Origin: a virus
Reading direction: 5' to 3' (one strand)
IMG/VR virus record: IMGVR_UViG_3300018079_000025
Span: 1 to 33,794 of that record
DNA length: 33,794 bases
Each line of letters begins with the position of its first letter. Position 1 is the stretch's first letter. Shown here one piece after another: positions 9,354-33,794 of the stretch. Under the pieces are notes generated by a model that saw only the letters and a list, made by a program, of their open reading frames with translations, searched no databases and was not told where the DNA came from. Both the position numbers and the translations under genes were made by a program.

Positions 9354-12183
9354 TTGGATTACCTTTCTTATCTTTACGTGCTTTGTCTTTTTCTTTAATC
9401 TGTAACTTCATTTGATCCATTTTTTGGGTATGCTGCGCTTTTGCTTGTTTATTTTGTAACTGAGTTTGTTCCATAGTTTGTGCATGTTGTTTTTCCCCCT
9501 GTTCTAAAGTCTGTTGATGTTCAACTTGAGATTGATGCATCTGCATATTGGATTGTGTTAATTTTTGCTGGTTTTGTTGATGTGCAATCTGTGATTGCTG
9601 ATTCATTTGCTGAGATTTAATATTAAGCTCACGCATGGAAATTTCATGCTTCATCTGCATCTCTTTAAGTTTTAATTGATGCTCTGCTTGAGCATGCTGC
9701 ATTTCCATTTGGTTAAGTTGACCTTGCCTTTGATCCTCCATATGTTGTTTTTGTAAATCACGTTGATCGTTCATTTGTTGAGATTGCTGCTCCATTTTAA
9801 TTTCTTGTTGCCTAGACTCCATTTCCATTTTTTGCTGTTGAATAGCAAGCATTGCTTTAGCTTGCTCCATCTGCATTTCTTGCTGTTCTGGAGAAGCTTG
9901 AGGATTCTTTATAGCATCTTTAGCCTTCTTATCCATTTGATTGACAAATAAATCAATAGAAGACTCTAAATCCCTACCTACTCTAAATTTACGAACTCCA
10001 AACTGTAAAAATCTACCAAATAACGGAGTAACTTCTGGCAATTCTTTGGCAACAGTAGACGCTTGAGTTAAAAATTGCATAGTAGCTGTAATAAATTCTA
10101 CAGCATCTTGCCGCTCCTGAGCAGCATCCCCAAAAATAGTACTATCAGTTTCAATATCTATGCGATAACACCTAGGAACATCACTTCTTAATAATTTAAT
10201 AGCCTTATCTAATTTAACTACTACCATTTCAGCGGGGTCAAACATCTGTTGAGCTAGCATGTTTTGCATATTTTGCAGCATATTATTAGGCTGTGTCATA
10301 TTAGGTGCTTGGCCCCCTTGGAACGGCACCACGTTGCTCCCAGGAGGCCCCTGGGGCGCTTGGAGCTGGCCACCCCCACCCATGCTTGGAATCGTTGCTG
10401 GCAGGCTTCCTAGGGCTCCTTGCGGGCCTCCTGGTTGGGTGAGTTGTAGGGGCTGTGGTTGTTGTGGTTGTTGTGGTTGTTGTGGTTGTTGTGGTTGTTG
10501 TGGTTGTTGTGGTTGTTGTGGTTGTTGTGGTTGTTGTGGTTGTTGTGGTTGTTGTGGTTGCTGCCCACCAAACATACCAGCCAAGCCATTACCTTGCTGC
10601 TGATCATTCTTAGGTAATTTAGACTCAAATTCTTCCTTTAAAACTTCAGGCGATAATTCATCATCATACAAAATTCCACTTGATTCTATGAGAGTTTTAA
10701 CACTGAAATGCTTTGCTGCAATCTCTGCAACGATTGCAACCGTATCTCTAGCAAATCGAGCTACTTCGTTTTGACGGTCAGATAATCTAGTCCCAGCATT
10801 GTTACTTTTAAGCCTGATTCCCCCAAGTGTTTCGCGACTATCCGTAGTTCCTCGGATAACGTCTGAAATTCCTGTAACAAGGTCTAAATCTTGCATTAAT
10901 TGTTGACGAACTTGTTGTAAGGTTTGAATAACCTTCTGTATTTCGTCTATAGGAAGGAAACTTATCCCGCCCTTAACTCCGCCTTTTTCTGCATGAACAG
11001 CCCAACTATCTACAGGCAGTAGTTCGTTTTCTACACCTTCAGTAAGTAACCTCTTTAGTGGTGCATTAGACGAATCATATGTACCTGCAACCTTACAAGC
11101 TTTAGTTAAAAGAGCTAAACGTTGAGTAAGTTCATCTATTTGTATAGCTTGGTCTTGATACTCGTAATAATCAGGTACAGGTATTAAACTATTACTAGTA
11201 AGTGTAGAAAATAACGGAGGTGGCACAGGAAAAAATTTCTTTAATTTAAGATAATCATCTTTAACATCTGCTAAGAAATCGTACCCTGGTGACACCCAAT
11301 AAATTTTTCTATCTGTTTTGTTCCAAATCTCATATATAGTTATACTTCTTTCATTAACATCCCTAAAAATAGGTGTATCGGTGTAAGATTGTCTATTACT
11401 AGATTGACCAAGGGGGGTAGTGTCCCCGCGCATATCGGAACCAATTTTATTTCCAAACCTTTGCTTAGCTTCTTTTTTAGATATATATACTCTTTTAGCT
11501 ATAGCTTGAACCTCTTCCCAAGTTCTTACTTTAGATGGGAATACTAAGAAATCATGCCAATCTATATAATCTACAGGAGCTTGCTCAGATAACAATTGCT
11601 CTCCAGTATTTTCAAGTTTATTAGATTCTTCGCTGTCTTCGTCCTTACCATCTATCTCTGCTAGTTCATCTTCTACACCACTTTCAGTTGTTATAGGTAA
11701 ACTATCTCCGCCACCTATCTCTGGCTCATATCTTACCCAAACAGTACCTCTCCCTGGCAAAAGATAATCCATAACTGCTTTATTTATGGCTTCGTGTAAA
11801 CCATTTTCATCTAATTGATTTCTTGTTGTTCTCTCAAGTATTACAGAACTTAACCTTGCAACAGGATCACGCTGTAAAAATTTACGCTCTATTACTGGTA
11901 TAGGTTTTTTACCATACAAAGCAGGTTTTAATATTTTAATATTGGTCCAAAGAACGTTTAACCTTCTTAAAGTACTTTCATCGGCTTTAGTGCGCTCATC
12001 TCTAAATCGCTTTACAACTTCATTACCTTTTTTTACCCAAGCTCTATTCTGTTTTTCAACAAACTCAATTTGTTCTTTCCAAAACGCAGCTAATTTACGA
12101 GATTGTTCGTTTTCACCTGGTTTTATATCAGATGAATCATTATTTTCTACTAGTTTTAAATTAGCTTTTTTTGTTTTAGCCAT
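9346..12183 (-). CDS. portal protein, P22-like, with Gln-rich insertions
   Basis: A 945-aa protein; P22-type portals are about 700 aa, so this is long. The first about 480 residues carry the portal core: helix FWKEQIEFVEKQNRAWVKKG, VVKRFRDER, NVLWTNIKILKPALYGKKP, VIERKF, then RDVNERSITIYEIWNKTDRK. The stem-like region is ITGISDVIRGTTDSRETLGG and RLSDRQNEVARFARDTVAI (about 440-490). A low-complexity insertion rich in Pro-Gln follows (about 545-680), then a return to fold (AVELIKL-like helix, DIETDSTIFGDAAQERQDAV). A very long Gln/Met-rich coiled-coil tail (about 770-930) recalls the P22 portal barrel, which extends into the capsid. It forms the dodecameric DNA channel and docks the terminase. 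Confidence 0.85.
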   Translation of the reverse strand: MAKTKKANLKLVENNDSSDIKPGENEQSRKLAAFWKEQIEFVEKQNRAWVKKGNEVVKRFRDERTKADESTLRRLNVLWTNIKILKPALYGKKPIPVIERKFLQRDPVARLSSVILERTTRNQLDENGLHEAINKAVMDYLLPGRGTVWVRYEPEIGGGDSLPITTESGVEDELAEIDGKDEDSEESNKLENTGEQLLSEQAPVDYIDWHDFLVFPSKVRTWEEVQAIAKRVYISKKEAKQRFGNKIGSDMRGDTTPLGQSSNRQSYTDTPIFRDVNERSITIYEIWNKTDRKIYWVSPGYDFLADVKDDYLKLKKFFPVPPPLFSTLTSNSLIPVPDYYEYQDQAIQIDELTQRLALLTKACKVAGTYDSSNAPLKRLLTEGVENELLPVDSWAVHAEKGGVKGGISFLPIDEIQKVIQTLQQVRQQLMQDLDLVTGISDVIRGTTDSRETLGGIRLKSNNAGTRLSDRQNEVARFARDTVAIVAEIAAKHFSVKTLIESSGILYDDELSPEVLKEEFESKLPKNDQQQGNGLAGMFGGQQPQQPQQPQQPQQPQQPQQPQQPQQPQQPQQPQQPQPLQLTQPGGPQGALGSLPATIPSMGGGGQLQAPQGPPGSNVVPFQGGQAPNMTQPNNMLQNMQNMLAQQMFDPAEMVVVKLDKAIKLLRSDVPRCYRIDIETDSTIFGDAAQERQDAVEFITATMQFLTQASTVAKELPEVTPLFGRFLQFGVRKFRVGRDLESSIDLFVNQMDKKAKDAIKNPQASPEQQEMQMEQAKAMLAIQQQKMEMESRQQEIKMEQQSQQMNDQRDLQKQHMEDQRQGQLNQMEMQHAQAEHQLKLKEMQMKHEISMRELNIKSQQMNQQSQIAHQQNQQKLTQSNMQMHQSQVEHQQTLEQGEKQHAQTMEQTQLQNKQAKAQHTQKMDQMKLQIKEKDKARKDKKGNPSA
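10456..10562 (-). repeat. 9-base tandem repeat coding for (Pro-Gln-Gln)n in portal
   Basis: About twelve nearly perfect copies of the 9-base unit read on the + strand as tggttgttg. In the portal frame the unit encodes Pro-Gln-Gln. The copies are identical apart from the ends, which suggests recent expansion by slippage; any change in copy number keeps the frame. The opposite strand is also open here, encoding a Gly-Cys-Cys shadow frame that I do not consider real. Confidence 0.9.
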
Positions 12184-21761: not shown

Positions 21762-22300
21762 CTAAAATTGTGGTGCCTCCAAAAGAAATACTGGAGTATA
21801 TTAGGGAGAATTATAGTTACGACACTCGGGGATGGATTAATGGGCCGCTGAAGGATAATATTGGAGAATTTAGTAAGAGACCCGATGGTAAAGTTATAAG
21901 AAGATTAAAAATTCAAAGAAAAAACTATAAAGTACACCACATTGTTTGGTTTCTATGTAAAAAACATTGGCCTACTTCTGAAATAGACCACATAGATAGG
22001 GATACTTTAAATAATAAAGTTGAAAATTTAAGAGATGTTGATAGTTTTACACAAAACCAAAATAAAGAAAACTACAAAGGATACAAAGGGTTCAGTGTTT
22101 TTTATGACCATAGCGAAGCTCACAGAAGAAAACAGCTGTGGAGAGTAAGAAATCAAAGCCAAGATATTTATCTTGGAAGATTTTACACCGAGGAAGAATG
22201 TTATAAAGTGATTGATAGATACTGGGAGGAAAGAGGGGAGGCTTTTAAATGGGTAGGGGGGGTTTATTTTCAGGATTTAGGGGGGAATGTTTGGGGGTAA
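21758..22300 (+). CDS. HNH homing endonuclease with AP2-like domain
   Basis: A 180-aa protein from a GTG start overlapping the previous stop. The HNH region runs VHHIVWFLCKKHWPTSEIDH then IDRDTLNNKVENLRDV (about residues 68-103), with the His-His and Asn-Asn residues of the family. The C-terminal YKGFSVFYDHSEAHRRKQLW then RVRNQSQDIYLGRFYTEEEC matches the AP2-like DNA-binding pattern. It is the distant partner of the 1569-2081 enzyme, with the same architecture but diverged sequence. It lies at the end of the small-gene operon, just before the palindrome-rich non-coding region. Confidence 0.85.
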   Translation: MTKIVVPPKEILEYIRENYSYDTRGWINGPLKDNIGEFSKRPDGKVIRRLKIQRKNYKVHHIVWFLCKKHWPTSEIDHIDRDTLNNKVENLRDVDSFTQNQNKENYKGYKGFSVFYDHSEAHRRKQLWRVRNQSQDIYLGRFYTEEECYKVIDRYWEERGEAFKWVGGVYFQDLGGNVWG

Positions 22301-22334
22301 CTTGGAAAAGTGGGGAAATCTAGGTTCCGTGCAC

Positions 22335-22358
22335 GGGGGGGCGTGGGGGGGCGTGGGG
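22335..22358 (+). promoter_or_regulatory. G-quadruplex-capable G-tracts
   Basis: Runs of seven, seven and four G separated by CGT (22335-22341, 22345-22351, 22355-22358), 35 bases after the HNH stop on the coding strand. The tracts could form a G-quadruplex in DNA or RNA. Similar G-tracts occur at 23203-23220. Their role is unknown; they might pause transcription or replication. Confidence 0.4.
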
Positions 22359-22515
22359 CATAGGACTTTTTTCTAGCAAATTTTCCTCCTTGCATACACA
22401 ATAGTTGCAGAATTACAACGAACAAACCATACACATACACAGAACTGTTGCACAACTGCAACCAACTTGAACAATCACAACGTTCATTAAACGTGTCAAG
22501 TATAATATATGTCAA

Positions 22516-22531
22516 ATCACATTATTGTGAT
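22516..22531. promoter_or_regulatory. operator-like site ATCAC-N6-GTGAT (1 of 4)
   Basis: ATCAC-ATTATT-GTGAT. The outer five bases of each arm are exact in four places in the window (here, 22842, 23352 and 32429). Preceded by ATGTCAA, as at 22842, so the matching region is longer than the palindrome. Confidence 0.5.
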
Positions 22532-22556
22532 CTTGCAGAATTTAAACAATGCAGTC

Positions 22557-22574
22557 AAGTTGTATATACAACTT
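22557..22574. promoter_or_regulatory. perfect 18-base palindrome
   Basis: AAGTTGTATATACAACTT reads the same on both strands. It could be a binding site for a dimeric protein. A looser GTTGT...ACAAC arrangement occurs at about 32407-32424, again near an ATCAC-N6-GTGAT site. Confidence 0.5.
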
Positions 22575-22584
22575 AATATAGCGG

Positions 22585-22602
22585 CGCAGCTGAATTGCTG
22601 CG
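22585..22602. terminator. hairpin downstream of the 44-aa leftward gene
   Basis: Stem CGCAGC/GCTGCG with a six-base loop, eleven bases past the stop of the 22613-22747 gene. There is no clear T-run, so it may be a weak terminator or simply part of the palindrome cluster. Confidence 0.35.
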
Positions 22603-22612
22603 ATTATTTGTA

Positions 22613-22747
22613 TCAGCACCAACGATTTGTGTGAACATAAATCCAGCCATCTACATTATCAATCAATTCATTAAGCTCCTCAAGCGTTAGCTCAGTCTCT
22701 ACAGTGTAGCGGCCTGTCCAGAATGATATCCACTTGACCATGTACAT
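22613..22747 (-). CDS. small unknown protein (44 aa)
   Basis: A leftward frame from ATG 22747 to TGA 22613, preceded by AAGGGAG about seven bases upstream. It reads MYMVKWISFWTGRYTVETEL then TLEELNELIDNVDGWIYVHT and NRWC. The balanced composition, amphipathic middle helix and good ribosome-binding site make it a convincing mini gene, standing alone in the otherwise non-coding region. Function unknown. Confidence 0.55.
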   Translation of the reverse strand: MYMVKWISFWTGRYTVETELTLEELNELIDNVDGWIYVHTNRWC

Positions 22748-22841
22748 GTGGCGCTCCCTTGATCTACCAAGCTACACAATATCACAGCTGCAAATAATTG
22801 CAACAATAATCGTGTTGTGCTGTAGCTACAAACTATGTCAA

Positions 22842-22857
22842 ATCACAATATTGTGAT
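22842..22857. promoter_or_regulatory. operator-like site ATCAC-N6-GTGAT (2 of 4)
   Basis: ATCACAATATTGTGAT is a perfect 16-base palindrome, the most symmetric of the four copies, preceded by ATGTCAA as at 22516. Confidence 0.55.
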
Positions 22858-22863
22858 GCTTTC

Positions 22864-22879
22864 CATAACATATGTTATG
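22864..22879. promoter_or_regulatory. perfect 16-base palindrome
   Basis: CATAACATATGTTATG, seven bases after the operator-like site and four bases before ATACGC-GTG-GCGTAT. Likely a protein-binding site or cruciform-forming element. Confidence 0.45.
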
Positions 22880-23132
22880 CGAATACGCGTGGCGTATAGC
22901 CGCATAATGATGCTGCTTGACAACGCTTGTTGATACAAGTGGGGCGCCGTGAGGCAGAGTTGTAGCTACAGTACAAAAATCAGAGTTATGACATAAATAG
23001 CTTAACAAAGTGACAATGAATTAGAATAATATAAACGTTCTAGGTTTGTTCTGTTACGTTATAACATTCTTGTGCAGTGCGAAATCGTCACCACTACTAT
23101 GCTCAAACATACACCATAAGCGGCAGCTGGTT

Positions 23133-23160
23133 TTGACACTTATGTATAGTTATGTATACT
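23133..23160 (+). promoter_or_regulatory. strong rightward promoter
   Basis: TTGACA (23133-23138), 16-base spacer ending TTATG, then TATACT (23155-23160). It is the best sigma70-like match in the window and would drive the 23507 gene and those after it through a leader of about 340 bases. Confidence 0.6.
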
Positions 23161-23202
23161 TACTCCTTAAAGTATGTAAATTGTATATAGTATAAGAAGG
23201 GG

Positions 23203-23220
23203 GGGTGTGGGGAGAGGAGA
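23203..23220 (+). promoter_or_regulatory. G-tracts in the leader of the 23507 operon
   Basis: A run of seven G, then TGT, then GGGG, followed by GGAGAATAGGG. It lies about 40 bases downstream of the promoter at 23133-23160 and could form a quadruplex in the nascent RNA or the displaced DNA strand. Confidence 0.35.
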
Positions 23221-23294
23221 ATAGGGCAAACCATACACAACCCTACACGGACCACGCTAACCCTTTGATCCGCCTCAACAATTCGTCTCAATCA

Positions 23295-23324
23295 ACTATA
23301 CACCGTACTATACACACTATACAC
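23295..23324 (+). repeat. three 9-base iteron-like repeats
   Basis: ACTATACAC occurs at 23295-23303, 23307-23315 and 23316-23324. Short direct repeats beside palindromes and AT-rich DNA are typical of replication origins or regulator arrays. Related CATACAC words occur at about 22423-22440 and 23230. Confidence 0.5.
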
Positions 23325-23351
23325 AAAAAACACCGTTCAGTGTTAACCTTT

Positions 23352-23367
23352 ATCACATTCCCGTGAT
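23352..23367. promoter_or_regulatory. operator-like site ATCAC-N6-GTGAT (3 of 4)
   Basis: ATCAC-ATTCCC-GTGAT in the leader between the 23133 promoter and the 23507 gene. The central six bases differ from the other copies while the arms are exact. Confidence 0.45.
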
Positions 23368-23506
23368 CGTCTTGTAGGACACATCCGTACACTTCCTATC
23401 CCCCTCTTAGCTATTTTCCGCGCCACACAACACATTTATCTTTACCCCAGCGCAATTCCGTGCTATAGTCTCTCATCAACAAATCAACCCTTGGAGGGCC
23501 ACAGCA

Positions 23507-23725
23507 ATGTCTGACAACAACATGTCACCAATTAACTCAAATTACATCCGCAATGAATACGAATGGGACTATATGGCGGATGTAAAGTGGGACGTTATCC
23601 GCAACAATCTTGCTTGTGCTCGCCGGGTTGTAAGTTTTCCTGAGATGTTCCCAAACGCTGATTTTGAATATCTACACAATCAAATCATTGAATTTGAATT
23701 GTTTTTATTGACTAACGGCAAGTAA
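23507..23725 (+). CDS. unknown protein (72 aa)
   Basis: ATG 23507 with TTGGAGG upstream (spacing about twelve bases). Acidic and aromatic: MSDNNMSPINSNYIRNEYEW then DYMADVKWDVIRNNLACARR and FPEMFPNADFEYLHNQIIEF. It looks like a compact helical early protein. No family is recognised. First gene after the palindrome/iteron region. Confidence 0.5.
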   Translation: MSDNNMSPINSNYIRNEYEWDYMADVKWDVIRNNLACARRVVSFPEMFPNADFEYLHNQIIEFELFLLTNGK

Positions 23726-24046: not shown

Positions 24047-24517
24047 ATGACCACTAAAATCCTAACCTTCAAAACTTTGAAGGGCTTGGGCGCATGCAAA
24101 GATCAGCTGCTTAGATTTAAGCAGCTTTTCGGCGATAAAGTAAATGTAACTGCTGAACTCTGCAACAAACACTGCAACGAATTTGATTGGAATTGGGCTG
24201 CTGAAAGTTTGTTGCACGCTCCAGCTTTGACAGAATACCATCGCATCCACGATACGGCTTTGACGAAATATGATCGCATCTGCGCTACGGCTTTGGCGGA
24301 ATACAAGAGCATCTGCGCTCCGGCTTGGGAGAAATACAAGCGCATCTGCGACCCAGCTTTGGCAGAATACAAGCGCATCCGCGCTCCGGCTCTGGCAGAA
24401 TACCATCGCATCCGCGATACGGCTTGGGCAGAATACAATCGCATCCGCGATACGACTCTTGCAAAATATAATCGCGTCTTCGCTACGGCTTGGGCAGAAT
24501 TGTATATTAACAACTGA
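24047..24517 (+). CDS. 11-residue-repeat protein A
   Basis: A 156-aa protein. The start at 24047 has GGAGG six bases upstream and matches the paralogue's start. An N-terminal domain of about 58 residues (KILTFKTLKGLGACKDQLLR, then FKQLFGDKVNVTAELCNKHC, then FDWNWAAESLL) is followed by eight and a half 11-residue units of the type (P/T)A(L/W)AEYxR(I/V)(C/R)(A/D). The x position varies most (His, Asp, Lys, Asn), while Ala, Glu-Tyr and Arg-Ile are steady. The spacing of 11 suggests a hendecad helical rod or solenoid. Function unknown. A near-copy lies at 24849-25313 and a third at 33542. Confidence 0.65.
   Translation: MTTKILTFKTLKGLGACKDQLLRFKQLFGDKVNVTAELCNKHCNEFDWNWAAESLLHAPALTEYHRIHDTALTKYDRICATALAEYKSICAPAWEKYKRICDPALAEYKRIRAPALAEYHRIRDTAWAEYNRIRDTTLAKYNRVFATAWAELYINN
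24190..24500 (+). repeat. 33-base repeat array in protein A gene
   Basis: Units follow GCTTTGGCAGAATACxxxCG then CATCTGCGCTCCG with scattered changes. Because the unit is a multiple of three and lacks stops, several other frames are also open here; I regard those as shadows. Confidence 0.85.
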
Positions 24518-24525
24518 GAAATGCA

Positions 24526-24819
24526 ATGCGCACCTCCGCCAAACCAAACGCCAAACTAGGCCAATCCGCTGCATCTATGTACCGTTGCAGCGTTAGATCA
24601 GCCGCTAGTGACATTGAGGCTCTTGTTGACGCCTATGGTGTGCATGCTATAATACAGATCGCCAATATGGTCGAGCAGGAAATTGCCGTGCATGGTGACT
24701 CCATTCACAATTGGCAATACAATATATGGTTAAACCAACAACCATTACCAATTATTCGCAAACAAAACAGGCCGGAGAATAAACGAGGTCGGAGAAATAA
24801 AGAGACTGTAGGTGTATGA
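24526..24819 (+). CDS. unknown protein (97 aa) between the two repeat-protein genes
   Basis: Reads MRTSAKPNAKLGQSAASMYR, CSVRSAASDIEALVDAYGVH, AIIQIANMVEQEIAVHGDSI and a basic tail (RPENKRGRRNKETVGV). The middle helix is amphipathic and the tail suggests nucleic-acid binding. It ends with an ATGA overlap to a possible upstream start of repeat protein B. A promoter-like sequence lies inside it (24626-24653). Confidence 0.5.
   Translation: MRTSAKPNAKLGQSAASMYRCSVRSAASDIEALVDAYGVHAIIQIANMVEQEIAVHGDSIHNWQYNIWLNQQPLPIIRKQNRPENKRGRRNKETVGV
24626..24653 (+). promoter_or_regulatory. promoter inside the 24526 gene, before repeat protein B
   Basis: TTGACG (24626-24631), 16-base spacer ending ATGC (extended -10), TATAAT (24648-24653). 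It would transcribe the repeat-protein B gene from within the preceding coding region. It may be chance, but both boxes are good. Confidence 0.45.
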
Positions 24820-24848
24820 CAGAAAGAAGTCAAAAAAGGAAACCGACA

Positions 24849-25313
24849 ATGACCGCTAAAATCCTAACCTTCAAAACTTTGAAGGGCTTGGGCGCATGCA
24901 AAGATCAGCTGCTTAGATTTAAGCAGCTTTTCGGCGATAAAGTAAATGTAACTGCTGAACTCTGCAACAAACACTGCGACGAATTTGATTGGAATTGGGC
25001 TGCTGAAAATTTGTTACCAGCCACGGCTTGGGCGGAATACGATAGCATCTGCGCTCCGGCTTTGGCAGAATACCATCGCATCTGCGCTCCGGCTTTGGCG
25101 GAATACGATAGCATCCGCGCTACGGCTTTGGCAGAATACAAGCGCATCGCTCCGGCTTTGGCAGAATACAAGCGCATCGCTCCGGCTTTGGCAGAATACC
25201 ATCGCATCTGCGCTCCGGCTTTGGCAGAATACGATAGCACCTGCGCTCCGGCTTTGGCAGAATACCATCGCATCTGCGCTCCGGCTTTGGCAGAATTGTA
25301 TATCAATACTTAA
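24849..25313 (+). CDS. 11-residue-repeat protein B
   Basis: A 154-aa paralogue of protein A. The first 55 codons are almost identical at DNA level to 24047-24211. The same N-domain (KTLKGLGACKDQLLRFKQLF...CDEFDWNWAAENLL, in pieces) is followed by repeats such as PALAEYHRICA and PALAEYDSICA. Two units are only ten residues (PALAEYKRIA), showing an in-frame three-base loss. It ends ALAELYINT, close to protein A's WAELYINN. I chose ATG 24849 by homology; ATG 24816, which overlaps the previous stop, is possible. Function unknown. Confidence 0.65.
   Translation: MTAKILTFKTLKGLGACKDQLLRFKQLFGDKVNVTAELCNKHCDEFDWNWAAENLLPATAWAEYDSICAPALAEYHRICAPALAEYDSIRATALAEYKRIAPALAEYKRIAPALAEYHRICAPALAEYDSTCAPALAEYHRICAPALAELYINT
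25018..25300 (+). repeat. 33/30-base repeat array in protein B gene
   Basis: About eight and a half units, more uniform than in protein A: GCTTTGGCAGAATACCATCG then CATCTGCGCTCCG recurs with few changes. Two adjacent units of 30 bases (about 25131-25190) are identical to each other, which indicates recent duplication. Confidence 0.85.
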
Positions 25314-25394
25314 ATGGTGGAGAAAACGTAACACCTCAATGTCACTGTCTAAAAACCTGAAAAAGCTTTAGCACTCCGTTGGAAAGAGGGGCGG

Positions 25395-28427: not shown

Positions 28428-29500
28428 TTAACTTTATCCCCGCGTCCCATGAGAACGTCGTTCCAATCGGCTAATTTACCGTTGGAAAGCTTACGCTTGG
28501 GTGGAAAAATGATTTTTACACTGTTACTTTGTTTTTTATATCTATCGACAGCTTTAAGAGTATTAATTTTGCCAGCTTCGTCAGGATCAGGAAAAAGTGT
28601 TATATCGTAACCACTTAAATTGAGAGTAGAAAAATTATTACTGTTAATAGTACTAACGACAGATAAGCGCCCAAGATTACGAATGGATAGTGCATTTTCT
28701 GGGCCTTCGACGATACTGAGTTGTGCGCAAGGTTTACCAAACCAAATAGCACAGCCACTAATACTACCCAAAGCAGCTTTAGGAGTAGTAACATCTAGTT
28801 TTTCACCCTTTTGGCTTAGGTATATTCGATGTATAGCTGTTATCGGTCCGTCGTGAGTTTCGCTAACTCTAAAAATTAAAGCTGGAACGGTTTGCCCCAG
28901 CTCTTTATTATACAGCTTACTTATAAATTTAACGTTTGGTTCGTCTTTAATAAATATATTTCTCGATCTTAAATAGCTATCTCCTATTGTGCCTTCAAAT
29001 GGTTGTGCTAATTTCCAAGTTTTTTCTACTATTTGTAGTATTTTTAGTTTTTGTTCTTGTTGTTTATGTTCCCGTATTAAATGGGCATCTCTAGCTGGTT
29101 TAATGAATTCACCTCCATTCTTTTTGATGTTAGAGAGTTGAGATTGTAAAATTCTAGCTGCATCGCTATATGTTGAACATCCATTGAGTCTTTGACATAG
29201 ACTGATAATATCAAATCCCCAGCTGATTTCCTTGTTTGCCCCCAGGCCTGAAAAATCTTCTCTCGTGAACCCTGGTCCAAAGCTAGAAAATTCAAACTTT
29301 GTATAATTTGAGCCTGTAAAATCTGCGCCTCTTCCTTTTGAAGTGTTAAATCTGCACGCTCCATGGTTTGTATCTCCTCGGGTTGGGTTAATAAAATCAT
29401 ATTCACTATCGTTTATTTTTGTGTATTGGAGGCTCCATGAATCAAAAAGAGCTTCGATATTGGCAAGCGCCAGCTCTTTAAGCTGAGCATATCTAGACAT
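28424..29500 (-). CDS. DNA primase with Toprim domain
   Basis: A 358-aa protein. The N-terminal part (NPTRGDTNHGACRFNTSKGR, then ADFTGS) resembles the zinc-binding/primase N-domain of plasmid and phage primases but has only one Cys there. The Toprim domain shows the Glu motif LSIVEGPENALSI (about residues 265-277) and the acidic motif ITLFPDPDEAG (about 305-315). The linker IGDSYLRSRNIF and VPALIFRVSETHDGPITAIH is typical of the DUF7146/Toprim_3 group. It makes primers for the helicase partner. Confidence 0.8.
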   Translation of the reverse strand: MSRYAQLKELALANIEALFDSWSLQYTKINDSEYDFINPTRGDTNHGACRFNTSKGRGADFTGSNYTKFEFSSFGPGFTREDFSGLGANKEISWGFDIISLCQRLNGCSTYSDAARILQSQLSNIKKNGGEFIKPARDAHLIREHKQQEQKLKILQIVEKTWKLAQPFEGTIGDSYLRSRNIFIKDEPNVKFISKLYNKELGQTVPALIFRVSETHDGPITAIHRIYLSQKGEKLDVTTPKAALGSISGCAIWFGKPCAQLSIVEGPENALSIRNLGRLSVVSTINSNNFSTLNLSGYDITLFPDPDEAGKINTLKAVDRYKKQSNSVKIIFPPKRKLSNGKLADWNDVLMGRGDKVK

Positions 29501-30133: not shown

Positions 30134-30162
30134 TTGACAAAGCAGCCTATCTGTACTATGTT
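30134..30162 (+). promoter_or_regulatory. promoter of the structured RNA / nrdJ leader
   Basis: TTGACA (30134-30139), 17-base spacer, TATGTT (30157-30162); predicted start about 30169, exactly at the base of the first hairpin. Confidence 0.5.
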
Positions 30163-30168
30163 TCGAGC

Positions 30169-30331
30169 ACGTAGGATTTTTGCCTCGCCTACGTTCTTAC
30201 CTTCAAGGTTGCAGTGATCGCGATTCTCCCCCTGCGAACCTGCGATAGCCTCACAGAGGCGTAGCCTTGAAGGCCACTGGCCCTAGGTTCCTCTGGACAC
30301 GGACCCCAGACGGTGACCTAGGGCCTTTTTT
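30169..30331 (+). ncRNA. structured RNA with three-way junction and terminator, upstream of nrdJ
   Basis: Much more GC-rich than the surrounding genes. P0: ACGTAGG/CCTACGT (30169-30175 with 30188-30194). P1: a 13-pair helix CCTTCAAGGTTGC with GTAGCCTTGAAGG (30200-30212 with 30261-30273; two G-U pairs). P1 encloses P2 ATCGC/GCGAT (30217-30221 with 30242-30246) and P3 GCCTC-ACA-GAGGC (30248-30260). P4 is a terminator (30279-30331). No open frame of worth crosses it. It may be a separate small RNA or a riboswitch-like leader of nrdJ; a structured 'nrdJ motif' is known upstream of nrdJ genes in metagenomes, but I cannot confirm a match. Confidence 0.55.
30279..30331 (+). terminator. intrinsic terminator of the structured RNA
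   Basis: A ten-pair stem GGCCCTAGGT/ACCTAGGGCC (30279-30288 with 30316-30325), inner stem TCTGG/CCAGA (30292-30296 with 30306-30310), followed by six T (30326-30331). A second copy of the 3' arm, CCTAGGGGCCTT, occurs at 30339-30350 and could compete for pairing. Confidence 0.75.
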
Positions 30332-30367
30332 CTTGACGCCTAGGGGCCTTCTGCGGCAAGGTGTGAG

Positions 30368-30447
30368 TTCGGCTCCTTTTCCTCCCAAGGGTGTAGGAGC
30401 CGAGCGGCTCAGAGGGCTAATGGTCACCCCCCGCGCCCTCTGAGCCG
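30368..30447 (+). promoter_or_regulatory. paired hairpins with interchangeable arms in nrdJ leader
   Basis: Hairpin 1: TTCGGCTCCT with AGGAGCCGAG (30368-30377 with 30395-30404). Hairpin 2: a perfect 13-pair CGGCTCAGAGGGC with GCCCTCTGAGCCG (30405-30417 with 30435-30447), followed by TTTC. The core CGGCTC occurs twice and GAGCCG twice, so a third hairpin (30397-30401 with 30406-30410) can form instead of both. Such exclusive pairing is typical of regulatory leaders. Confidence 0.55.
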
Positions 30448-30487
30448 TTTCAAAATAAAAAATAAAATATAAAAAGAGGCATACAAC

Positions 30488-32260
30488 ATGACGGCTATGA
30501 ATTTCTACAGCGCTAGAAGTGTATCTTCTGCGCATGATGAATCTTATATGAAAGAGTTACAATATTTTGACAGGTTACACGCTGAAAAATACAGAGATAC
30601 AAACCAAACAAAGCAGCAACACTGTGAACGATTATCAACTAATTTAGCGTCTGATAGTGAACATAAAAATAAACTATATGAAATACTGTACTACAACAGA
30701 TTTCTTCCAGCAGGTAGGGTTCAAGCGGCACTAGGAGCAACGGAACGTGAAGTATCTCCTTTTAATTGTTCTGTATCTCAAACTATTGAAGATAGTATGG
30801 AGTCTATTATGGTGGCACTTTCAAATGCTGCAAAAATACTCCGTCTCGGTACAGGAATTGGGTATAACTTTAGTCATCTCAGACCCCAAGGTGCCGAGAT
30901 CAGAAAACTTAAAACTCAGTCATCCGGCCCATTAAGCTTTATGAAAATATTCGACGTTATGGCCAGCACCATAGCCAGTTCTGGTCATCGTCGTGGCGCA
31001 CAGATGGGAATAATGAATGTCGACCACCTAGACATTGAGGAGTTTATTGACGCAAAAATGGAAAAAGGAGCCTACAGACAATTTAATTTATCAGTTGGCA
31101 TCTCCGATAAATTCATGGATTGCGTTAAGGAAAATGCTGAATGGCCATTGTCTTTCAATGGGGGAATTACGAACATTACATCAGCTAGATTACTATGGAG
31201 GAAAATCATTAACAATGCGTATGAAAGCGCCGAACCTGGAATAATATTTATTGATCGGCTAAATGATAAAAATAACCTTTGGTACTGCGAGGAAATAGAG
31301 GCAACTAATCCTTGCAGCGAACAGCCTTTGCCACCATACGGGTTATGCACACTTGGATCGTTTAATTTAGTTGCGTACTTGTATAAACAAGATAGAAAAT
31401 TTCAATTTAACTTTGCTCAATTTTATTCTGATATTTACAGAATAGTTGAGGCCTATGATAATATATTCGACGATGCTGTGTATGCTATTCCAGAACATGA
31501 AGTCGAAGCAAAATCTAAACGAAGAATGGGCTTGGGTTTGACTGGAATAGCAAACGCTATTGAATTAATGAATGGTGAACCGTCTTATGGAGACTTTAAT
31601 TTTTGTGGTTGGCTAGGACACATAGCTAGGGAGCTATGTGTAACTGCATATGATGCCAGCGTAGAATTGGCAAAGAAACGCGGTAGTTTTCCTTTATATG
31701 ATACTGATAAGTATCTATCTTCTAATTTTATAAAAATTCTACCAGTAGAACTACAAAATAAAATAAATCGGTTTGGCATTCGCAACTCACATCTAATCAG
31801 CTACGCTCCATGTGGCACTATATCCCAAACAGCTTGGAATGTTAGCTCAGGTGTTGAACCTGTTTTTCACCATCAAATAGAACGTGACGTTTACATGAAG
31901 GATGGAAAAGAAACTATAACTATTACTGATTTTGCCTATAGAGAACACGGCTTCAAAGGAAAAACCCTTGAAGAATGCTCAATACAGGATCATTTAAATG
32001 TTGCTGAGATATGCCAAAAGTATTGTGATAGCGCAGTATCTAAAACAGTAAATGTAGCTAGTAATTGCAGCTACGATGAGTACGAGCAAATATACAGGAA
32101 AGCATACGACTTAGGGCTGAAGGGGATAACTGTTTACAGGCCTACAGAGCTTAGGGGGGTTGTAATAAAAAAAGCTGAGCCGGAACAGTTTGAGTTGCCG
32201 TTCCCCAGCTATAATCACAACCCTAATTTAAGCTGTGCTAATGGTACATGTGACCGTTAA
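30488..32260 (+). CDS. nrdJ: class II (B12-dependent) ribonucleotide reductase
   Basis: A 590-aa protein converting ribonucleotides to deoxyribonucleotides with adenosylcobalamin. The redox Cys is Cys94 (PFNCSVSQT) with partner Cys287 (YGLCTLGSFNL); the thiyl-radical Cys276 sits in the N-x-C-x-E motif NPCSEQ (274-279) with Asn274 and Glu278. Further landmarks are LRLGTGIGYNFSHLRP, ASSGHRRGAQMG and SYAPCGTISQTAWNVSSG. The C-terminal Cys583/Cys588 pair (SCANGTCDR) would receive electrons. There is no ATP-cone. Ribosome-binding site AAGAGG. It lies behind the structured leader. Confidence 0.93.
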   Translation: MTAMNFYSARSVSSAHDESYMKELQYFDRLHAEKYRDTNQTKQQHCERLSTNLASDSEHKNKLYEILYYNRFLPAGRVQAALGATEREVSPFNCSVSQTIEDSMESIMVALSNAAKILRLGTGIGYNFSHLRPQGAEIRKLKTQSSGPLSFMKIFDVMASTIASSGHRRGAQMGIMNVDHLDIEEFIDAKMEKGAYRQFNLSVGISDKFMDCVKENAEWPLSFNGGITNITSARLLWRKIINNAYESAEPGIIFIDRLNDKNNLWYCEEIEATNPCSEQPLPPYGLCTLGSFNLVAYLYKQDRKFQFNFAQFYSDIYRIVEAYDNIFDDAVYAIPEHEVEAKSKRRMGLGLTGIANAIELMNGEPSYGDFNFCGWLGHIARELCVTAYDASVELAKKRGSFPLYDTDKYLSSNFIKILPVELQNKINRFGIRNSHLISYAPCGTISQTAWNVSSGVEPVFHHQIERDVYMKDGKETITITDFAYREHGFKGKTLEECSIQDHLNVAEICQKYCDSAVSKTVNVASNCSYDEYEQIYRKAYDLGLKGITVYRPTELRGVVIKKAEPEQFELPFPSYNHNPNLSCANGTCDR

Positions 32261-32263
32261 AAC

Positions 32264-32307
32264 AACAACCCCTCCGACGTGTTTCCTAGGACACGGGAGG
32301 GGTTGTT
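32264..32307 (+). terminator. hairpin after nrdJ
   Basis: A 12-pair stem AACAACCCCTCC/GGAGGGGTTGTT with an inner CGTGT/ACACG, starting four bases after the nrdJ stop. No T-run follows, so it may be a Rho-independent terminator of weak type or an mRNA 3'-end stabiliser. Confidence 0.55.
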
Positions 32308-32325
32308 ACGAAGGAGATTTTGACA

Positions 32326-32397
32326 ATGAACAGAAACACACTAAAAGTGACAGCACACCTAGGAGACTGCCAAGAATGTACTCTACTGCAACACTAG
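32326..32397 (+). CDS. possible mini protein (23 aa)
   Basis: ATG 32326 with AAGGAG nine bases upstream, reading MNRNTLKVTAHLGDCQECTL then LQH to TAG 32397. The good ribosome-binding site is the main support; there is a CxxC pair. Confidence 0.3.
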   Translation: MNRNTLKVTAHLGDCQECTLLQH

Positions 32398-32428
32398 TAT
32401 ATGTCAAGTTGTTTCACGTACAACACTG

Positions 32429-33344: not shown

Positions 33345-33538
33345 GTAAAGAGGCAATACGCGGAGAAACGGGAATAATCTTTAGAGGGCAATGGAATTGG
33401 AGGAATTGTATAGGAGAAATAAAAGATTGGAACTTAGATAAAATAAAGCCAAAGAGCGCAGAAGCTCTTTACAATGCATGCACTGCTGTATTCAACTCTA
33501 GAAAACTACGCCCCAATGATTGGGGTAAAGTGGAGTAA
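33341..33538 (+). CDS. unknown protein (65 aa), TTG start
   Basis: A TTG start at 33341 overlapping the previous TGA, with AGGAGGCGGAG just upstream. Reads MSKEAIRGETGIIFRGQWNW then RNCIGEIKDWNLDKIKPKSA and a helical end (EALYNACTAVFNSRKL). Trp-rich and compact; no family recognised. Confidence 0.5.
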   Translation: MSKEAIRGETGIIFRGQWNWRNCIGEIKDWNLDKIKPKSAEALYNACTAVFNSRKLRPNDWGKVE

Positions 33539-33541
33539 GCG

Positions 33542-33794
33542 ATGAGAAAAAAAAGACGAAAAGGCAAAGGCGTAGAAAACCCGGCTTTGGTAGAATACGA
33601 TCGCATCTGCGATCCGGCTTGGGTAGAATACAATCGCGTCATCGCTACGGCTTTGGCAGAATACAATCGCGTCATCGCTACGGCTTTGGCAGAATACAAT
33701 CGCAGATGCGCTACGGCTTGGGTAGAATACAGTCGCATCCGCGATTCGGCTTGGGTAGAATACAGTCGCATCCGCGATTCGGCTTGGGCAGAAT
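33542..33794 (+). CDS. 11-residue-repeat protein C (partial at window edge)
   Basis: ATG 33542 with GGAG upstream; the frame is open to the last base. A short basic start (MRKKRRKGKGVENP) replaces the N-domain of proteins A and B, then units ALVEYDRICD, PAWVEYNRVIA, TALAEYNRVIA (twice in near-identical DNA), AWVEYSRIRDS and so on. The repeat type is the same as in 24047-24517 and 24849-25313 but lies 8 kb away. It supports a dispersed repeat-protein family whose array can be joined to different N-termini. Confidence 0.6.
   Translation, partial: MRKKRRKGKGVENPALVEYDRICDPAWVEYNRVIATALAEYNRVIATALAEYNRRCATAWVEYSRIRDSAWVEYSRIRDSAWAE

Follow-up and report, generated by a model that had tools for sequence, protein, structure and literature searches.

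Organization of the nrdJ locus

The window, i.e. the whole stretch of DNA analysed (33,794 nt, a 33.8-kb IMG/VR phage record), carries a gene for a class II ribonucleotide reductase, nrdJ, preceded directly by a GC-rich stretch (30134-30447) with a putative promoter, a hairpin-rich segment and an intrinsic terminator (Table 1). The identity of nrdJ, assumed in an earlier note made from the letters alone, was confirmed by a score of 455 bits against TIGR02504 (cut-off 400). The same note had described a GC-rich structured element with its own promoter in an AT-rich phage. Both were found: the GC content is 0.587 in 30151-30450 in comparison to mostly 0.33-0.45 in the rest of the window, the fold z is about -6, and the promoter motifs are separated by the claimed 17 nt. 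The element itself, placed at 30134-30331, is real, but this end is too short, as the structure runs on toward the nrdJ start codon at 30488; the part that explains the element, the nrdJ Shine-Dalgarno (SD) segment further downstream, was missed. No further copies of the leader RNA were found within the same record.

Table 1. Features of the nrdJ leader and gene (positions in the window)
Feature	Position	Strand	Basis
Sigma-70-type promoter TTGACA-N17-TATGTT	30134-30162	+	TTGACA 30134-30139, 17-nt spacer, TATGTT 30157-30162; same site and exact 17-nt spacing in L001, L002, L005, L006
Hairpin 1, 7 pairs, 12-nt loop (30176-30187)	30169-30194	+	predicted fold; arms 30169-30175/30188-30194
Anti-Shine-Dalgarno core TGCCTC in hairpin-1 loop	30181-30186	+	unpaired probability 0.99; able to pair with 30476-30481, with which it covaries in the five phages
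Three-way-junction insert, window phage only	30200-30273	+	fold; missing in four relatives; predicted outer helix 30200-30210/30263-30273
Intrinsic terminator, GGCCC-stem and T6	30279-30331	+	fold, dedicated terminator scan; T6 at 30326-30331; counterpart in 4/4 relatives
Second structured part of the leader, A-rich unpaired 3' end	30332-30487	+	fold z -4.9 (30333-30487); GC-rich counterparts in relatives
SD segment of nrdJ (GAGGCA), predicted pairing site of the hairpin-1 loop	30476-30481	+	complementary to 30181-30186
nrdJ (590 aa), adenosylcobalamin-dependent ribonucleotide reductase of class II	30488-32260	+	TIGR02504, PF02867

Several other features of the window were recorded. A long near-perfect hairpin lies just past the nrdJ stop codon (32261-32407), and a minus-strand TTGACA-N16-TAGAGT reads into it, so a short antisense RNA behind nrdJ is possible. 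Tandem repeats of 33 nt, encoding an 11-residue repeat of the ALAEYxRI type, occupy two neighbouring ORFs (24123-25362) and reappear at the window end (33483-33794). Two near-identical copies with a TCACAATATTGTGA-like, operator-like palindrome (22501-22531 and 22827-22857) lie near strong GC skew swings over 22051-23550. A 9-nt repeat (10416-10577) encodes a proline-glutamine run within a minus-strand ORF of 945 aa.

Predicted fold of the leader

The segment 30165-30332 folds with a minimum free energy (MFE) of -74.8 kcal/mol, as compared to a mean of -50.3 kcal/mol for shuffled sequences (z -5.8; none of 200 shuffles as low). The 7-pair hairpin noticed earlier was recovered at the same place. 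A helix enclosing two hairpins is also predicted, although it comprises 11 pairs and not the 13 counted before. The terminator with six T residues stood up as well: its stem GGCCCTAGGT...ACCTAGGGCC reached -29.9 kcal/mol in a dedicated scan, and a generic scan had overlooked it because of a loop limit of 8. Beyond the terminator the structured stretch reaches about 30447 and is followed by an A-rich stretch, the SD and the ATG.

Four relatives share the layout but not the RNA sequence

NrdJ searches of viral contigs yielded four relatives (L001, L002, L005 and L006; contigs of 64-66 kb) whose NrdJ proteins are 63-68 % identical to that of the window over its length. The order TTGACA-N17-(-10), hairpin, terminator, second GC-rich part and nrdJ is kept in all five phages. 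TTGACA is exact and the spacer is 17 nt throughout the relatives, with TAAACT (L001), TATATA (L002) and TATAAA (L005 and L006) as -10 elements. Their terminators have a GGCC-stem and a T run 65-82 nt past the predicted start. With the window included, the distance from promoter to strong terminator is 65-157 nt and from TTGACA to ATG 273-354 nt. Among the terminators found behind a full TTGACA-N17 promoter, that of the nrdJ leader is by far the most stable in every one of the five genomes. The short RNA is predicted to be 75-91 nt long in the relatives and about 165 nt in the window phage. In the relatives a single simple hairpin precedes the terminator, giving two stem-loops when the terminator is counted and no three-way junction.

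The RNA sequences of the five leaders are unrelated, and blastn detected no nucleotide similarity above noise between the leaders of the first three phages compared. The second GC-rich part, common to all five phages, is likewise without evident sequence similarity; its counterparts in the relatives fold with z between -1.2 and -3.7. The earlier note had counted a conserved reading frame across the region as evidence against its RNA reading. A coding explanation was rejected, as different phages have different open frames in this GC-rich stretch and the DNA is without similarity.

A GC-rich leader was present at 5 of the 83 NrdJ loci compared and at none of the other 78, which are more distant and all in viral contigs. 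In roseophages CRP-738 and CRP-9, with NrdJ about 50 % identical, nrdJ adjoins or overlaps the preceding gene without a leader. No sixth leader was obtained through NrdJ, helicase/primase or DNA polymerase alignments or through the promoter pattern. One scan of a genome collection gave a remote match only, and a blastn search of GenBank phages with the region gave no match. The comparative evidence comes from five phages, all uncultured.

These comparisons bear on the second suggestion of the earlier note, a leader that senses a metabolite. A leader responding to AdoCbl, a nucleotide or another metabolite, with the terminator as its output, would suit the position ahead of an AdoCbl-dependent enzyme and the strong structure. 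Rfam 15 at the gathering score, however, gave no match in the window and only tRNAs in the four relatives, so that no riboswitch was recognized; searches of the leaders down to E<=5 returned weak matches to unrelated families only. The nrdJ motif and cobalamin families gave no match, the former being covered only if it is among the Rfam 15 families. In addition, the relatives have no more than a simple hairpin ahead of the terminator, and there is no conserved sequence core. The idea of an aptamer came from the three-way junction, which is absent from the relatives. The metabolite reading is unsupported and we regard it as very unlikely.

The hairpin loop is complementary to the nrdJ Shine-Dalgarno region

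In L001, L002, L005 and L006 the loop of the hairpin perfectly matches the nrdJ SD region over 9 (TGATGCCTT/AAGGCATCA), 10 (TTGACGCCTC/GAGGCGTCAA), 12 (TTGTGGACGCCC/GGGCGTCCACAA) and 9 (GATGCCTCG/CGAGGCATC) pairs, respectively. Such lengths were reached in 0.013, 0.002, 0/1000 and 0.004 of dinucleotide shuffles, in the same order. The window phage has six contiguous pairs (TGCCTC/GAGGCA), which 64 % of shuffled RNAs reach and which are not significant alone. They occupy the same place in the loop as in the relatives, and more pairs follow past a mismatch. This match is the weakest of the five, and the case for the window phage rests on its position and on the relatives.

When the five hairpins were confronted with the five ribosome-binding sites (RBSs), the true assignment was the best of 120 permutations by both match length and duplex energy, with a mean match length of 9.2 in comparison to 5.5 for the off-diagonal combinations. 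In an 8-pair core of the aligned loop and SD, 95 % of cells were paired and 4 of the 8 pairs had changed on both sides. Column shuffles reached this double-sided count in 4 of 500 cases and the paired percentage in 1 of 500, and pairing fell to 34-48 % in slid registers. An 11-pair version of the alignment contained five double-sided pairs. As the register for covariation was picked for its complementarity and the permutation test weighs all combinations alike, the latter (1 of 120) is the fairer number. The loop and the nrdJ SD change together across the five phages.

Among about 100 gene starts per genome, called crudely by a simple script, that of nrdJ matched the loop of the same phage over the greatest length in L001, L002 and L006. 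In L005 the 12-nt nrdJ match was the longest among the starts listed, the gene caller having chosen another nrdJ start. Loops swapped between phages found matches of at most 5-9 nt in these genomes. Within the rest of its own leader the short RNA of the four relatives has its longest match at the nrdJ RBS, with the exception of the terminator palindrome in L001. The seed is unpaired with a mean probability of 0.99 in the window phage, 0.84 in L001 and 0.48-0.68 in L002, L005 and L006; in these last three phages the outer loop bases can also pair inside the hairpin.

Within the RNA it is the complementarity of loop and SD that the five phages keep, the surrounding sequence being unrelated. The reading of the region as a chance structure in GC-rich intergenic DNA could draw on the non-significant match of the window phage itself, but a fold z of about -6, the syntenic recurrence in five diverged phages and the outcome of the permutation and covariation tests already contradict it, and it is scarcely credible. 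A Put-like antiterminator RNA, which would modify RNA polymerase as it enters an early operon, would accord with the promoter, hairpin RNA and terminator arranged in series where the nrdJ transcript begins, next to divergent primase genes. It is nevertheless highly improbable, as no RNA sequence or fold is conserved beyond the SD-complementary loop and the covariation of loop and SD would be left unexplained.

Action in trans or in cis

In all five phages the loop and the SD are located about 200-300 nt apart on one predicted transcript. The pairing could therefore take place purely in cis, within the same read-through mRNA, with the terminator acting as an attenuator and the short RNA being waste; the covariation expected would be identical. 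Against such an arrangement stand the accessibility of the loop and the strong terminator that the RNA possesses, placed between the loop and its target.

A further argument comes from L002. A gene of 114 aa in this phage (L128 19527-19868, minus), on the same strand as nrdJ and about 12 kb away from it, has at its start AGGCGTCAACCAATG, which is perfectly complementary over 13 nt to the loop sequence TTGGTTGACGCCT; the match ends at the start codon. Its product is weakly similar to Rz-type spanins (phrog_7686, E 2.5e-4). A homologue in L006 shows a 6-nt match to the loop, and none is visible in L005. The match at the start of an unlinked gene favours action in trans and speaks against control in cis only, which we consider unlikely though still to be reckoned with. 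The second target in L002, one phage, is the main evidence suggesting that the free short RNA may act in trans.

In the window, the RBSs at 29500 (minus strand, primase gene) and 24047 (plus strand, ORF of the repeat protein) match the loop over 7 nt, one nucleotide longer than the nrdJ match. The RBSs of the neighbouring primase and helicase genes were rejected as conserved second targets, since their matches do not recur consistently in the relatives.

Proposed function of the nrdJ leader

The layout, the complementarity of loop and SD and their covariation form the part of the explanation that is supported by comparison of the five phages. Since the loop mirrors the nrdJ RBS, the RNA very probably controls the amount of NrdJ. 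The alternative of a small phage RNA, left open by the earlier note, gained ground from a promoter followed by a strong terminator in all five phages and from a loop covarying with the nrdJ RBS. Our preferred reading, which we hold to be probable, is that 30134-30487 is an nrdJ leader that doubles as a small-RNA gene, and that the terminated antisense sRNA keeps the nrdJ mRNA made by read-through of the same leader from being translated.

From the arrangement of these elements we infer transcription of the leader, the sign of regulation, action in trans and buffering against copy number, as follows. The sigma-70-type promoter would start a transcript near 30169. The majority of transcripts would be released as free RNA by the terminator, at 30331, and the remainder would read through into nrdJ. 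The hairpin-1 loop, as an antisense of the nrdJ SD region, would pair in trans, and perhaps in cis as well, on the read-through mRNA, keeping ribosomes off so that NrdJ synthesis stays low. A single promoter would then yield both the inhibitor and the message, with their ratio set by the terminator, and the NrdJ output would consequently be buffered against promoter strength and the copy number of the phage gene.

Comparison with known regulatory RNAs

The nrdJ leader RNA is best read as working like the phage c4 RNA and IsrK while belonging to neither. The c4 RNA precedes its target on a common transcript. In P1 and P7 it is a small antisense RNA against phage mRNA, about 77 nt long, which is excised by RNase P and has three stem-loops and two pairing loops, a' and b' (PMC5320573). 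Like the b' loop, the loop of the nrdJ leader is complementary to the RBS of the target (6-12 nt, covarying). The nrdJ leader RNA differs in that it is predicted to end at its own terminator, with a promoter directly upstream in place of the RNase P cut of c4, and has one pairing loop in most members. A second contact comparable to a' (at least 7 nt near the RBS) occurs only in L005 (9 nt, CACAACAAC); none was found near the RBS in the other four phages. Rfam searches gave no match to the c4 family (RF01695), down to E<=5 for the window and L006 and at the gathering score for L001, L002 and L005. Membership in the c4 family was rejected for want of an Rfam match and of a shared second contact; moreover, the relatives have two stem-loops, not three.

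IsrK of the Salmonella Gifsy-1 prophage is a terminated sRNA that activates its own read-through mRNA by pairing with the 3' portion of orf45 (PMC4825925). As judged from the letters, the nrdJ leader shares with it a phage locus with a promoter, a short RNA, an intrinsic terminator and a read-through mRNA complementary to the short RNA. The two were compared by layout. The nrdJ leader differs in controlling a ribonucleotide reductase and in a loop that would pair directly with the SD, for which repression is expected. The common layout admits an activating variant, in which the read-through mRNA would be silenced in cis by its own copy of hairpin 1 or by the second part of the leader, and the free short RNA would compete and open the nrdJ RBS, as the short RNA of Gifsy-1 activates its own read-through mRNA (PMC4825925). 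In line with this possibility, a portion of the second domain is paired to the SD in the MFE fold of L005. However, the IsrK site lies away from the RBS, whereas here the SD itself is covered in every phage, which predicts occlusion, and activation appears quite unlikely. The second part of L005 also contains GACGCCC, which is able to pair with the SD too.

Other RNAs resemble the nrdJ leader in part. The P4 CI RNA is processed and makes transcription terminate via seqA/seqC, whereas the nrdJ leader RNA would pair with an SD. Common to both is an untranslated phage leader giving a small antisense RNA against its own transcript, as described for CI RNA (PMC4825925). GraL (PMC6829880), ChiZ/IspZ (PMC7815308) and SreA/SreB (PMC4825925) are short bacterial RNAs formed by termination in a 5' leader, with the mRNA made by read-through, and act in trans. 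They are not phage RNAs, and the passages considered describe no pairing of these RNAs with the SD of the gene that follows them. OppZ and CarZ are mRNA-derived sRNAs that feed back on their own operon (PMC7398697), but they come from the 3' UTR and not from a terminated 5' leader.

Implications for phage RNA regulation

An sRNA acting on its own read-through mRNA was called the first example in the 2016 paper on IsrK (PMC4825925). sRNAs that control their own read-through mRNA are very rare, and the same design would here be present in a separate, uncultured phage lineage, at a gene of nucleotide metabolism. More tentatively, the five leaders may represent a new, fast-evolving class of phage leader RNA, a possibility to which we give less credence than to the function proposed above. 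In such a class only the complementarity of loop and SD would be kept, and one promoter would produce the antisense RNA, ended by the terminator, together with the mRNA that this RNA represses. This would amount to an RNA-only, dosage-compensating ribonucleotide reductase circuit with extra trans targets in individual phages.

That the pairing is kept while the RNA around it has changed beyond recognition suggests that family searches by conserved sequence or fold miss such RNAs. A scan for complementarity between hairpin loops and the next SD could find more of them. For these phages the leader offers a testable idea of how the level of ribonucleotide reductase may be set while the genome copies multiply.
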